Positions 29,657-35,536 of a stretch of DNA of 64,000 nucleotides are shown here, piece by piece. Source of the stretch: Deltaproteobacteria bacterium (GTDB taxonomy: Bacteria > Desulfobacterota > Desulfuromonadia > Desulfuromonadales > JAAYDE01); contig JAFGRU010000047.1 in NCBI GenBank assembly GCA_016934985.1, forward strand, positions 1 through 64,000, in the 5' to 3' direction. The position numbers were made by a program, and so were the translations under genes. The number at the start of each line of letters is the position of its first letter. The stretch's first letter is position 1. The notes under the pieces are model-generated. The model was not told the origin of the DNA. It worked only from the letters and a program-made list of their open reading frames with translations, and made no database searches.

Positions 29657-30853
29657 TCAGCTTTTTGAGGGGCGGAACCGTTGTTCCGCTTCCTGGTTGA
29701 TAATACGATAAACCTCGGGAAGAGGGATGTCCTTTTGCCGGGCAATGCGGCGGCAGCATTCGTATTCGGGCGAAATACGCAGGATGTCCTCCCCTTCGAA
29801 AACCAGTTTTAGTGAAACCTCCCCCAGGGAAGAGGCGAAGATATGATTCTCCCGATGAAGTTTCAGGCGTTCGGCGTTGTGTCTGCGAACCCCGATAGCA
29901 CTGGTTTCCCGCATTATCAGCCGGCTCAGGTTTTGAGCGTTCCAAGGCTCGGAAATAACCGTTATCTTTACGCCGGGGCGGTTTTTTTTCATTTGAACAG
30001 GTGCAAAGGAAACATCGAGGGCGCCGCTCTCGAACAGGCGTTCCATCAGGGCGCCGAGCCATTCAGCGCTGCTGTCGTCAAGATTGGTTTCGAGAACCGC
30101 GACATGATCCTTTTCCAAGCCCGGCGCTGCCCGCCGCCCGAGAATTCCGCGCAGAAGGTTGGGCTGCTCGGAAATATCGCGGCTGCCGACTCCGTAACCG
30201 GTTTTTTCAATGGTCATGTCCGGAAAAGGGCAGAAGGTCGCTAATGTAGCGGCAATGGCGGCGCCGGTTGGCGTGACAAGTTCATGGCTCAGACCGCTGT
30301 CGACGAGAGGCAGGCCCTGGAGGATTTCCAGGGTGGCCGGTGCCGGGAGTGGATAATTGCCATGAGCGCAGCGGACCGTTCCTGTGGAGAATGGCAGCGG
30401 GGTGGAAACGATTTCGGGGTTGCCGAGGAGAAACAGGCCAACCGCCGAACCTACAATATCGATGATGGAGTCGACAGACCCCACCTCATGAAAATGCACC
30501 TGGTCTTCCGTCACGCCGTGGATTTTGGCTTCCGCCCGGGCGATACACTGAAAAATTTTCAAGGCACATTCGCGGATATCGGGTTCGAGGCGACTTTTTT
30601 CAATGAGAATTCGGATGTCCCCCCAAGTGCGATGGTGATGCTGCTCCTGGATTGCAATGACAACCCGGCTGCCTTCGATGCCTCGGCGTTTTTCCCGCCT
30701 CGTCGAAATTTCCCAACCGGCCAGGTTAAGAGTTTCCAGCGATCTCCGAATGTCATCAAGGCTGACGCCGAGATCGATCAGCAGGCCGAGAAACATGTCG
30801 CCGGAGATGCCTGAAAAAGTATCGAGATAGAGTATCCTTTTTATTCCGGTCAT
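29657..30853 (-). CDS. larC: LarC: nickel-insertion protein for the nickel-pincer cofactor
   Basis: CTP-dependent cyclometallase that inserts nickel into the pyridinium-dithiocarboxylate precursor of the lactate-racemase cofactor. 398 aa. LYLDTFSGISGDMFLGLLID at the start is diagnostic. VHFHEVGSVDSIIDIVG, TPTGAAIAATL and ETNLDDSSAEWLG follow. Unlike the known split larC1/larC2 arrangement, it is one continuous frame. It overlaps larB by four bases. No larA or larE is present in the window. Confidence 0.93.
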   Translation of the reverse strand: MTGIKRILYLDTFSGISGDMFLGLLIDLGVSLDDIRRSLETLNLAGWEISTRREKRRGIEGSRVVIAIQEQHHHRTWGDIRILIEKSRLEPDIRECALKIFQCIARAEAKIHGVTEDQVHFHEVGSVDSIIDIVGSAVGLFLLGNPEIVSTPLPFSTGTVRCAHGNYPLPAPATLEILQGLPLVDSGLSHELVTPTGAAIAATLATFCPFPDMTIEKTGYGVGSRDISEQPNLLRGILGRRAAPGLEKDHVAVLETNLDDSSAEWLGALMERLFESGALDVSFAPVQMKKNRPGVKITVISEPWNAQNLSRLIMRETSAIGVRRHNAERLKLHRENHIFASSLGEVSLKLVFEGEDILRISPEYECCRRIARQKDIPLPEVYRIINQEAEQRFRPSKS

Positions 30854-31608
30854 TTAAATCCTGTTTGATTGATGCGCGTGGCGGCGCAGGCGGCTCCGAA
30901 ACCGTTGTCGATGTTGACGACCGTCACGCCGCTGGCACATGAGTTGAGCATGCCGAGGAGGGCTGCGAGGCCACCGAACGAAGCGCCGTAACCGACGGAG
31001 GTGGGAACTGCGATTACCGGAACCGCAACCATACCGCCGACAACGGAGGGGAGCGCTCCTTCGAACCCGGCCACGACAATGATGACGGATGCCTCCCGCA
31101 GTTTATCTGTTTTCGACAACAGACGATGCAGACCGGCGACGCCGACATCGATCAGCTCTTCCACCTCATTGCCGAAAATTCTTGCGGTGACGGCGGCCTC
31201 TCTGGCGACGGGCAGATCGGATGTCCCGGCACAGATGATCAAAATCTTCCCTTGGCTTTTTTTCGCTGTCGGATTTTGTTCGATGACGAACGTGCGGCTT
31301 AGAGTATCGTAGTGCCCATCGGGATGGTTCCCCAGCAGGAAGGCCCCTTTTTCTTTTGAAAGACGGGTTACCAGTATATTGGAGTTTTTGTCCTGCATGG
31401 CTTTGACAATGGCATCAAGTTGGTCGCATTCCTTATTCTCCCCGAAAACGACCTCGGGAAAGCCCTGACGCAACTCGCGATGATGATCGATCTGGGCCAT
31501 GCCGAGGTCCTGAAAGGGGAGACCCAAAAGTTTTTTTTCCGCTTCAGCCAGGGAAATTTCTCCTGCCTGGAGGGCATGAAGAAGTTTTTTCAGTTCAGTA
31601 GGATTCAT
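30850..31608 (-). CDS. larB: LarB: pyridinium-3,5-biscarboxylic acid mononucleotide synthase
   Basis: Carboxylates nicotinic acid adenine dinucleotide as the first step of nickel-pincer cofactor synthesis. 252 aa. The C-terminal PurE-like domain shows [47 protein letters not shown] and [20 protein letters not shown]. The N-terminal helices ([22 protein letters not shown]) are usual. Coupled to larC through an ATGA overlap. Confidence 0.94.
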
Positions 31609-32694: not shown

Positions 32695-33131
32695 CTTTTC
32701 CCTCCTGAAGCTTTCAACATCAGACAATATGTTTGTTAATTTCTAATTCCTTCATATTACATGGCGAAACTTGGCCGGTAAAGTCAAAATACTTGAGGAT
32801 TGATGCCGTTTAATAAGCGATGCTGCTCAGGTATGAATTATCCGTTTCATTAATTTTTAGGAAACCTCTTGTCAATCGTTTCGAGTTAAATAGACTTGAT
32901 TTCACTTTGAAGCGGTTGCGTATTCGGCAGGAAAAGGATAAGGAAAAGTGTTTTGGAAGATATCATTAGACGTATTATACGTGCTGCTGCTCAGTCGGAG
33001 TGCGGGGCTTCAGTAAAAGGACTGTGAAATGGTAGAAAGAAAAGAAGAGCGCTTCAGAAAAAAAAGGTGAGGTTCGGAAAAAGCTATCCTGTTGTTGTAA
33101 CCTTTTGCTTTGTTGGACGTTATGAAAGTGT
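32695..33131. other. Intergenic region upstream of the ECF sigma operon
   Basis: 437 bases between divergent genes; both promoters must be here. GGAAAC (32860-32865) followed 16 bases later by CGAGTT could be an ECF-type promoter, while TTGTCA and TAGACT in the same stretch could be sigma-70-type; these readings compete. At 33029-33070 a 13-codon frame starts after AAAGGA and stops just past an A8 run; the frame shifted at that run reads VRFGKSYPVVV, resembling the start of a PilZ domain. No intact gene is seen. Confidence 0.5.
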
Positions 33132-33617
33132 ATGGATAATTACCGGCAGTTCTACGAAAAACACAATGCCAGGCTTTTTTACTATTTGCTGCGCATGACC
33201 GGTGATTACCACCTGGCCGGCGATATTATGCAGGAAAGCTTTCTGCGCTTTTTCGAGCATTATCGGCATATTGAGGAGAAAACATCACTTCTATATACCA
33301 TTGCTCGCAACCTGGTATTTGATGAATCGCGGCGCAAGAAACCAGATAAAACAGGGGTAATACCGGAGAATCAATCCGAAGATTGCCTCGTTGAGAGTGA
33401 GCATCAGGTTCTGATCCGGGAGGAATACCGCCAAATGCTTGGGGCTTTGCAGCAATTGAGTTCCGACGACAGGGAAGTCCTGGCCCTGGTAGCAGGGGGT
33501 GATTGCAGCTACCGGGAAATCGGCCGCATCCTCGACATCAGTGAATCCCACGTCAAAGTGAAGGTGCACCGTGCCAGGTTAAAACTTAAAACGATTCTCA
33601 ACGCGGGAGGAGACTGA
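33132..33617 (+). CDS. ECF-type RNA polymerase sigma factor
   Basis: 161 aa. Region 2 at about 5-70 (FYEKHNARLFYYLLRMTGD, AGDIMQESFLRFFEHY) and region 4 at about 100-155 (LGALQQLSSDDREVLALVAG, YREIGRILDISESHVKVKVH). Region 1 and most of region 3 are absent, as expected for extracytoplasmic-function sigmas. Its stop overlaps the start of the next gene by one base (TGATG), so the putative anti-sigma factor is translationally coupled. Stimulus unknown. Confidence 0.93.
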   Translation: MDNYRQFYEKHNARLFYYLLRMTGDYHLAGDIMQESFLRFFEHYRHIEEKTSLLYTIARNLVFDESRRKKPDKTGVIPENQSEDCLVESEHQVLIREEYRQMLGALQQLSSDDREVLALVAGGDCSYREIGRILDISESHVKVKVHRARLKLKTILNAGGD

Positions 33618-34216
33618 TGGACTATTGGATCAGCCTTTTCATTGATGATGAAATGGATCTTGACGAAAAAATTGACTTTGTCGAAAAGATTCACGCCGAT
33701 GGGGTTTTTAAGGAAGAGTCTTTGACACTTCTGCGCCAGGAAAAGAAGTTGCGCTCGCCAGTGGCCGACAAGGTTCCGGCTTTTGAGGAAAGCTTGGCCG
33801 GTTCTCTGTCCGGGAAGAGCCCACCAAGTGAAAGGCGTTCACTTTTTGCTTTTGGGCCATGGTTTCGACCCTTGGCAGGTTGGGCTGCGGCTGCGGCTAT
33901 TCTAGCCCTCTTCGTGTTTGCCAATATGTCTTCTGAGCCTTCGGCGGGTCTTACACGAAATCGTTTCATTATTTACGAGCCGGAGATGGCACAGGTGGAG
34001 ATCTCCGGCACTTTCACATCATGGCAGCGAATTCCCATGCGGCCGGTGGGCGTTTCCGGTTACTGGGAGGCCAGACTTGCTCTTCCTGCCGGGGAGCATC
34101 GCTATTTCTATGTTCTGGATGGCCGTCGGCAGGTTGCGGATCCGACCGTTCAAACCCGGGAAAAAGATGATTTCGGTGGAGAAAATACCGTGCTGAATGT
34201 GGAGCACTCCATATGA
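33617..34216 (+). CDS. Putative membrane anti-sigma factor with E-set (CBM48-like) domain
   Basis: 199 aa. N-terminal acidic cytoplasmic part (1-78: DYWISLFIDDEMDLDEKIDFVEKI), one membrane helix at about 80-102 (LAGWAAAAAILALFVFANM) and an outside domain at about 115-196. That domain shows VEISGTFTSWQRIPM...GYWEARLALPAGEHRYFYVLDG, the early-set/glycogen-binding pattern seen in AMPK-beta and isoamylase proteins. Position after an ECF sigma gene and topology suggest an anti-sigma factor whose sensor is the E-set domain. No standard zinc anti-sigma motif (HxxxCxxC) is present. The role is inferred. Confidence 0.8.
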   Translation: MDYWISLFIDDEMDLDEKIDFVEKIHADGVFKEESLTLLRQEKKLRSPVADKVPAFEESLAGSLSGKSPPSERRSLFAFGPWFRPLAGWAAAAAILALFVFANMSSEPSAGLTRNRFIIYEPEMAQVEISGTFTSWQRIPMRPVGVSGYWEARLALPAGEHRYFYVLDGRRQVADPTVQTREKDDFGGENTVLNVEHSI

Positions 34217-34533
34217 GGCGGTGGTTTTATTTTTTGCTGTTTTTCGTTCTTGTCGGCTGTGCCAGCCATTACCACGAGATAAGTGGTGAAAATCTGTACC
34301 TTTATCTAAAACTGGAGGATGTCTCCCGAGTGGGTTTTGCATCGTCACTGGACGGTTTTAAAGTTCATGAGGCAAAACAAGCCGATCTGAAAACCTGGGA
34401 AATTTCGGTGCCCGCGGTGCAGGGGTTTGGCTATTTTTATTTTGTCGACGGAAAGATTTACATCCCGGATTGCCGGATGCGGGAATACGATGATTTTGGA
34501 ATGCAAAACTGCCTATATGAGCCGGGACTGTAA
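34213..34533 (+). CDS. Small lipoprotein with E-set-like domain
   Basis: 106 aa. Lipobox LVGC with lipidated Cys16. The mature part (about 25-100) looks like a second, smaller copy of the outside domain of the previous protein: VGFASSLDGF...TWEISVPAVQGFGYFYFVDGK...REYDDFGMQN compared with VEISGTFTSW...YWEARLALPAGEHRYFYVLDG...REKDDFGGEN. Two further Cys (about 86 and 99) may form a disulphide. The start overlaps the upstream stop (ATGA). Likely an envelope partner of the sigma/anti-sigma pair. Confidence 0.78.
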   Translation: MRRWFYFLLFFVLVGCASHYHEISGENLYLYLKLEDVSRVGFASSLDGFKVHEAKQADLKTWEISVPAVQGFGYFYFVDGKIYIPDCRMREYDDFGMQNCLYEPGL

Positions 34534-34620
34534 CCTTTTGGTCGCCTGCCCGTTTATAGTTGAAAAGAAACAAATTGGCAGTCCCCCTTGTTGGGGACAA
34601 AATATGACTGGGAGGACATT

Positions 34621-35481
34621 ATGAAAACGTTAACAGCTGTTCTGATGATGCTATTACTTGGAGCATCCGGGGTTTTAGCCGATGAGGTCGATGAGGGGCT
34701 TTCCTCCCGGGCATCTTTGGAGTTGAAAAACAACACCCGGGAAATGATCAGGCTGGGCATTTCAAAGGACGACGCTATTGAAATGGTTCAACTTATGGAG
34801 AGAAGTCGGTTCCAGAACCAAGAGATGATTGAGGCCCAGAACGTCGTTATGGAGGCCAGGGGCCAAGGCTTGCCGGAGGGGCCGGTCATGAGCAAAGCCA
34901 GGGAGGGAATTGCCAAGCAGGTCGGGGACAAGGCCGTAGTTCAGGCTATGGAGCAGGTGCGTTCCCGTTATGCCTTTGCTTATGCGCAGGCCAGCAAGAT
35001 GTCTCTTAGCAGGAATCAAGCGAACCGTCTTGGCGATATCATCGCCCAGGGTCTGGCCGCGGGAATGACGGAAAAAGACATGGACGCTGTCAGAGATCAA
35101 TTGCAGCTCAGGACCAGACTGATGACCAGAAATCAGGCTGAAGAGCTGGCTTTGGAGACTTGCAATACGGTCCGAACCATGGCCCGTGTCGGGGTTCGTT
35201 CCGCCAATGCTGCGGATCTCGTTTCGGAAGCGTTGCAAAATAATTATCAGGCCAGGGAAATGAAGACGTTGCGCCATTCGTTCATGCATCGCTCCAGTAA
35301 CGAGAATCCTGATAAGCTTGCAGCGGGTTATGCCCGGGGAATTCGTGCCGGTATGAGTGCTGATGGCCTGGCCGAGGCCGGAAGAGGTCAGAGTGCTGCC
35401 GACGGTAAGGGTGCAAGCGGGGGCTCAGCTGGCGGCGGAAATGGTGGTTCAGGTGGCGGCGCGGGCAATGGTGGAAAATAA
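34621..35481 (+). CDS. Exported helical protein with Gly-rich tail, function unknown
   Basis: 286 aa from ATG 34621, with GGGAGGACATT upstream. Signal peptide at 1-21 (MKTLTAVLMMLLLGASGVLA). The body is charged and helical, with loosely repeated units of the form ISKDDAIEMVQLM, MSLSRNQANRLGDIIAQGLAAGM, MTRNQAEELALE, SADGLAEAG, suggesting tandem helical hairpins. The last 30 residues are almost all Gly, Ser, Ala and Asn. It lies 88 bases after the lipoprotein and before a strong terminator, so it ends the sigma operon. It could be the main secreted product of the regulon. Confidence 0.8.
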   Translation: MKTLTAVLMMLLLGASGVLADEVDEGLSSRASLELKNNTREMIRLGISKDDAIEMVQLMERSRFQNQEMIEAQNVVMEARGQGLPEGPVMSKAREGIAKQVGDKAVVQAMEQVRSRYAFAYAQASKMSLSRNQANRLGDIIAQGLAAGMTEKDMDAVRDQLQLRTRLMTRNQAEELALETCNTVRTMARVGVRSANAADLVSEALQNNYQAREMKTLRHSFMHRSSNENPDKLAAGYARGIRAGMSADGLAEAGRGQSAADGKGASGGSAGGGNGGSGGGAGNGGK

Positions 35482-35509
35482 TATTTCGTGTGTATCCGGA
35501 AAAAGATCA

Positions 35510-35536
35510 GCCCGGCTCTGAGCCGGGCTTTTTTTT
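35510..35536 (+). terminator. Rho-independent terminator of the sigma operon
   Basis: GCCCGGCT pairs with AGCCGGGC around CTG, followed by eight T residues. Lies 29 bases past the last gene. Confidence 0.92.

Follow-up and report, generated by a model that had tools for sequence, protein, structure and literature searches.

A cluster of four plus-strand genes in the window, as we call the whole 64,000-nucleotide stretch of DNA from a member of the Desulfobacterota that was analyzed here, most likely encodes a self-contained switch made up of an ECF sigma factor and a membrane anti-sigma factor, and we put the probability of this model as a whole at about 0.8. The genes, their synteny, the homology of their domains and the class of their promoters can be read from the DNA and protein sequences. 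What is new here is a sharply conserved, probably leaderless promoter, a small regulon of exported proteins and the finding that the module is widely conserved.

All four genes that a sequence-only reading of this DNA had placed here were found as ORFs, namely at 33132–33617 (gene 1), 33617–34216 (gene 2), 34213–34533 (gene 3) and 34621–35481 (gene 4). Within genes 1 to 3 each stop codon overlaps the next start codon, and 87 bases lie between the end of gene 3 and the start of gene 4. The strong terminator said to close the operon corresponds to the strongest one of the region, an intrinsic terminator at 35509–35536 on the plus strand with a 9-pair stem and a T run. The same reading had described all four genes as coupled, which holds for genes 1 to 3 but not for gene 4, since the latter is preceded by a second promoter of the class found before gene 1 (P2, TGTAACCTTTTGGTCGCCTGCCCGTTTA, 34529–34556, plus strand). 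Gene 4 thus belongs to the regulon of genes 1 to 3 but has a promoter to itself. Promoters of the sigma-70 type do not occur around the operon with a frequency above chance. Elsewhere in the window, two adjacent minus-strand ORFs at 29657–31608 look, by eye from their translations, like LarC and LarB, i.e. lactate racemase nickel-cofactor genes.

Gene 1 codes for a protein of 161 residues that matches only regions 2 and 4 of sigma factors in Pfam (Sigma70_r2 and Sigma70_r4), which fits the ECF (group IV) size of about 160–200 residues. The 199-residue product of gene 2 matches AMPK1_CBM (2.9e-10) and CBM_48 (1.3e-4) in Pfam, and its AlphaFold model contains helices at residues 3–9, 15–25 and 29–46, followed by a helix at residues 85–104 and an outer beta domain. 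From this model, profile homology and conserved residues, we assign the first three helices to a putative zinc-less class I anti-sigma domain (residues 1–49, 33617–33763). The helix at residues 85–104 (33869–33928) is hydrophobic and probably spans the membrane, and residues 113–195 (33953–34201) form the outer E-set domain. Residues 50–80, the expected place of a fourth helix contacting sigma2, are modeled with low confidence.

Gene 2 very likely encodes a class I anti-sigma factor, in agreement with the candidate role it had been given from its place and topology, and this assignment is based on synteny, on the homology of its N-terminus to zf-HC2 domains and on conserved contact residues. 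A scan of named genomes yielded 80 loci with relatives of gene 2, nearly all of them in Desulfobacterota, and the sigma gene adjoins gene 2 in every one of these (80/80). When profiles of 15 close gene 2 orthologs and of nine distant E-set membrane proteins were compared with hhalign, both groups aligned over their whole length with a probability of 99.7; seven of the nine distant proteins have a zf-HC2 match, and several adjoin ECF sigma genes. The residues S6, D10 and E12 of gene 2 are invariant in 81/81 sequences, as are R147 and R149 of the sigma factor. In a hand alignment these residues match the S7/D11 signature of RseA and R178 of RpoE, and we take D10 of gene 2 and R149 of the sigma factor to be the counterparts of RseA D11 and RpoE R178. 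A coevolution study found the contact between RseA D11 and sigma4 R178 to be kept in most groups of class I anti-sigma factors (PMC7406223).

The earlier observation that gene 2 lacks a zinc motif is borne out, as Pfam returned no zf-HC2 match for the protein, no HxxxCxxC motif is present in it and the zinc ligand positions are replaced in the window's family; on these grounds we rejected it as a zinc-type zf-HC2 member. Such a lack is not unusual, because the zinc motif is missing from about 44% of anti-sigma domains of class I (PMC7406223). The missing zf-HC2 match, together with top Foldseek matches that span only the E-set, might be taken to mean that gene 2 is an unrelated E-set membrane protein merely co-transcribed with the sigma gene. 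We regard this explanation as very improbable in view of the unbroken synteny with the sigma gene, the profile homology between the N-terminus and zf-HC2 relatives and the invariant contact residues.

In comparison with characterized zinc-less class I anti-sigma factors, gene 2 shares with RseA of E. coli and RskA of M. tuberculosis its place beside the sigma gene, a three-helix N-terminal domain, the S/D/E signature of helix 1 and a probable single transmembrane helix, but differs from both in its E-set ectodomain and in a co-encoded E-set lipoprotein. The same architecture is found in zf-HC2 E-set anti-sigma factors at other Desulfobacterota loci (L053, L061, L062 and L073), which are homologous over their whole length and likewise lie beside an ECF sigma gene. 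In contrast to gene 2, however, these four factors keep the HxxxCxxC motif, have multihaem cytochromes as neighbors and were not seen alongside a homolog of gene 3.

The sequence-only reading had asked for the gene order in related genomes and would have counted its absence there as a refutation, but the four-gene arrangement recurs in them and is not due to chance: besides the invariably adjacent sigma gene, 72 of the 80 loci have gene 3 and 67 have gene 4, several of the remaining loci stopping at a contig edge. Neither gene 3 nor gene 4 occupies its expected place in six of the 80 loci, and one more locus is cut by a contig end. Some of those six have genes 3 or 4 elsewhere in the cluster. 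Among loci that lack one or both beside the pair, gene 4 precedes the sigma gene at L141, and genes 3 and 4 both lie upstream at L087. The switch is widespread in sulfate reducers and related bacteria, and carriers among the named genomes include Desulfosarcina widdelii, Desulforhopalus singaporensis and Desulfopila. Among 98 close genomes, the window's own included, none of the others contains a full-length gene 2, and a phylum-wide sample of 297 genomes contained 15 with an ortholog, again counting the window's own; most of the loci fetched from these 15 carriers show the four-gene order directly. The occurrence of gene 2 around the window's genome is patchy, which suggests that it was acquired horizontally. 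Viral contigs yielded no relatives of gene 2. One ortholog pair (L147) is located in a metagenome-assembled genome labeled Flavobacteriaceae, which may reflect a binning error or a transfer. Three genomes harbor two sigma/anti-sigma pairs each (L103/L131, L114/L120 and L146/L148), where one copy is followed by genes 3 and 4 and the other is without gene 4 at this place and, in two of the three genomes, without gene 3. The second copy of each genome comes with the conserved promoter in the opposite orientation, ahead of an exported repeat protein.

ECF promoters typically carry a −35 element of the AAC type, serve autoregulation and keep a usual spacing to the transcription start. The motif GTAAC-N16-CGT recurs upstream of the sigma gene in most loci, with the extended consensus TGTAACCTTTT-N11-CGTTAT, and in the window it constitutes P1 (TGTAACCTTTTGCTTTGTTGGACGTTAT, 33096–33123, plus strand), the promoter that precedes the sigma operon. 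With TGTAAC-N16-CGT ahead of the sigma gene, P1 fits the ECF promoter type, which points to autoregulation of the sigma operon from this site. The consensus site is positioned 33–38 nt before the sigma start codon in 45 loci and exactly 36 nt before it in 32. At the usual spacing of ECF promoters, transcription from such a site would begin at the start codon or right beside it, and the sigma mRNA is therefore predicted to be leaderless. A Shine-Dalgarno-like sequence was detected for the sigma gene in only 3 of these 45 loci, as opposed to 50 of 80 for gene 2 and 41 of 67 for gene 4. A weight matrix found 156 matches in the 80 loci and its reversed version one. The sigma promoters served to train the matrix and are therefore circular in that count, which does not apply to the 43 matches before gene 4 or to 47 further ones. 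Those before gene 4 are equivalents of P2 and occur in 43 of the 67 relatives with gene 4. In the window, the −35 element of P2 contains the stop codon of gene 3.

We counted the sites genome-wide by pattern search. Even with one mismatch allowed to the strict pattern, the genome of the window contains exactly three sites, P1, P2 and a distant one (G000:C84:13774-13801), and a reversed control pattern gave none at zero mismatches and six at one. The third site precedes a gene with its own ribosome-binding site for an exported protein of 76 residues with KKDTSC/KKDGSC repeats, which is 41% identical to the product behind the equivalent site of L134. In the sample of 297 genomes, the strict pattern occurs in 11 of the 15 gene 2 carriers in comparison to 5 of the 282 other genomes. 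Of the 47 further sites in relatives, 25 precede genes for small exported proteins with Gly-, DGTG- or DGSC-repeats, compared to 27 of 1000 random positions (2.7%); because the motif classes were defined after viewing the targets, this enrichment is descriptive, though large. Four of the 47 precede homologs of gene 4 (10 of 1000 random positions), and a few precede genes for di-haem peroxidase, DUF2202 or PAS-like proteins. The Gly-rich and DGSC target proteins gave no credible match in Pfam or NCBIfam. The promoter was also seen before cytochrome c genes at L101, L120, L131 and L146, where the L146 gene codes for a CCP_MauG di-haem peroxidase and the products at L120 and L131 look similar. 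At L158 (G228:C4:169655) it lies before a gene for a DUF2202 protein, and DUF2202 was dropped as a general target since only one of the 15 carriers yielded it.

Neither gene 3 nor gene 4 yielded a significant Pfam family. The 106-residue product of gene 3 (plus strand) has a lipobox (LVGC), and its profile aligns with the ectodomain of gene 2 with a probability of 98.9 in hhalign; on this alignment it is identified as an E-set lipoprotein, as had been read from the sequence. The lipobox cysteine Cys16 and Cys87 are each conserved in 72 of 73 copies and Cys100 in 72 of 72. Gene 4 (286 residues, plus strand) had been described as exported and helical with a tail rich in Gly, and this description agrees with a confident all-helical AlphaFold model (pLDDT 91.4) of repeat type and with a Gly content of the tail that exceeds 30% in 62 of the 68 copies counted, the window's included. 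The best fold matches of gene 4 were designed helical-repeat proteins, none at E≤0.001, and a profile search against the PDB gave no credible match. At loci L053, L054, L056, L061 and L067, distant zf-HC2 E-set anti-sigma genes lie beside an ECF sigma gene and genes for large proteins rich in CxxCH motifs; most of these loci also encode a short helical protein that is exported and resembles gene 4. The same kind of module thus appears to be tied to multihaem cytochromes in other families.

The outer domain of gene 2 had been likened to glycogen-binding E-set domains, and as a fold this is correct: Pfam, Foldseek and a profile search against the PDB all identify an AMPK-beta-type E-set, and the Foldseek alignments to the glycogen-binding domain of AMPK beta reach target TM-scores of about 0.73–0.88 (best isolated domains) at 25–31% identity. 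We aligned to it what we take to be the glycan contacts of AMPK beta, namely W100, K126, W133, L146 and N150. W100 and N150 have their counterparts in W136 and N190, which are invariant or nearly so, and the position of L146 is a Phe, but K126 and W133 are not retained as such at the aligned positions. A further difference from the CBM48 domain of AMPK beta is that the domain of gene 2 lies outside the membrane on an anti-sigma factor.

It has been proposed that a glycan controls the sigma factor through this domain as a new kind of input. Binding of a cell-surface or exogenous glycan would be in accordance with the fold and the two retained residues, and carbohydrate-binding modules serve as sensors on the RsgI anti-sigma factors (PMC12203970). 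However, that precedent also means that such an input would not be new, and the loss of the K126 and W133 positions and the lack of any glycan-metabolism gene among those seen behind the promoter both speak against it; we hence consider control by a glycan unlikely. RsgI of Clostridium thermocellum resembles gene 2 as a membrane anti-sigma factor with an outer module of the carbohydrate-binding type, but its partner is SigI rather than an ECF sigma factor, its modules are of other families and its self-cleaving periplasmic domain is absent in gene 2. Gene 2 was accordingly rejected as an RsgI member, neither an RsgI N-terminal nor a self-cleaving periplasmic domain being found with Pfam and NCBIfam.

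Alternatively, the E-set may be a protein–protein module that takes the lipoprotein or the helical protein as its direct input and so monitors the export or assembly of the system's own products. What makes such a partner the likelier input is that a homologous E-set lipoprotein is encoded in the same transcript and that proteins resembling gene 4 occur even beside the distant zinc-type versions; in addition, genes 3 and 4 are served by the same promoter class. RsiV of B. subtilis provides a precedent as an ECF anti-sigma factor acting as a protein receptor (PMC5014341), although its ligand is lysozyme and its ectodomain is unrelated to that of gene 2. The six loci without genes 3 and 4 directly downstream argue against a direct input of this kind. 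Sensing of a protein partner, rather than of a free glycan, is therefore our tentative preference, held at somewhat below even odds, and the least certain step of the model.

Taken together, we infer a mechanism in which sigma binding, autoregulation, proteolytic release and a leaderless start would act as follows. In the resting state, the sigma factor would be sequestered by the three-helix domain that gene 2 has in the cytoplasm. An envelope signal perceived at the outer E-set would lead to its release, probably by regulated proteolysis as for RseA or RsiV. The free sigma factor would then direct transcription from P1, yielding its own leaderless mRNA together with the anti-sigma factor and the E-set lipoprotein, from P2, yielding the exported helical Gly-tailed protein, and from the one distant promoter, yielding the 76-residue exported Cys-repeat protein. 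In its most specific and slightly more speculative form, the paired E-sets of the anti-sigma factor and the lipoprotein might act as a protein sensor across the periplasm that controls, from a leaderless sigma mRNA that amplifies itself, a dedicated set of exported Gly-rich and DGTG/DGSC-repeat proteins.

The open-access literature that we searched contained no relevant description of E-set or glycogen-binding anti-sigma factors, an earlier mention being possible in the 2021 ECF re-classification, and the search found no ECF systems of sulfate reducers. The analysis provides a concrete predicted regulon for an uncharacterized sigma system that is spread over the Desulfobacterota, and it links this system to small exported repeat families (GPGDGTG, RDGSC) without a credible Pfam or NCBIfam match. 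Its promoter is distinctive enough to predict targets within single genomes, and the system bears on the question of whether an E-set of the glycogen-binding type, placed outside the membrane, became a protein sensor.
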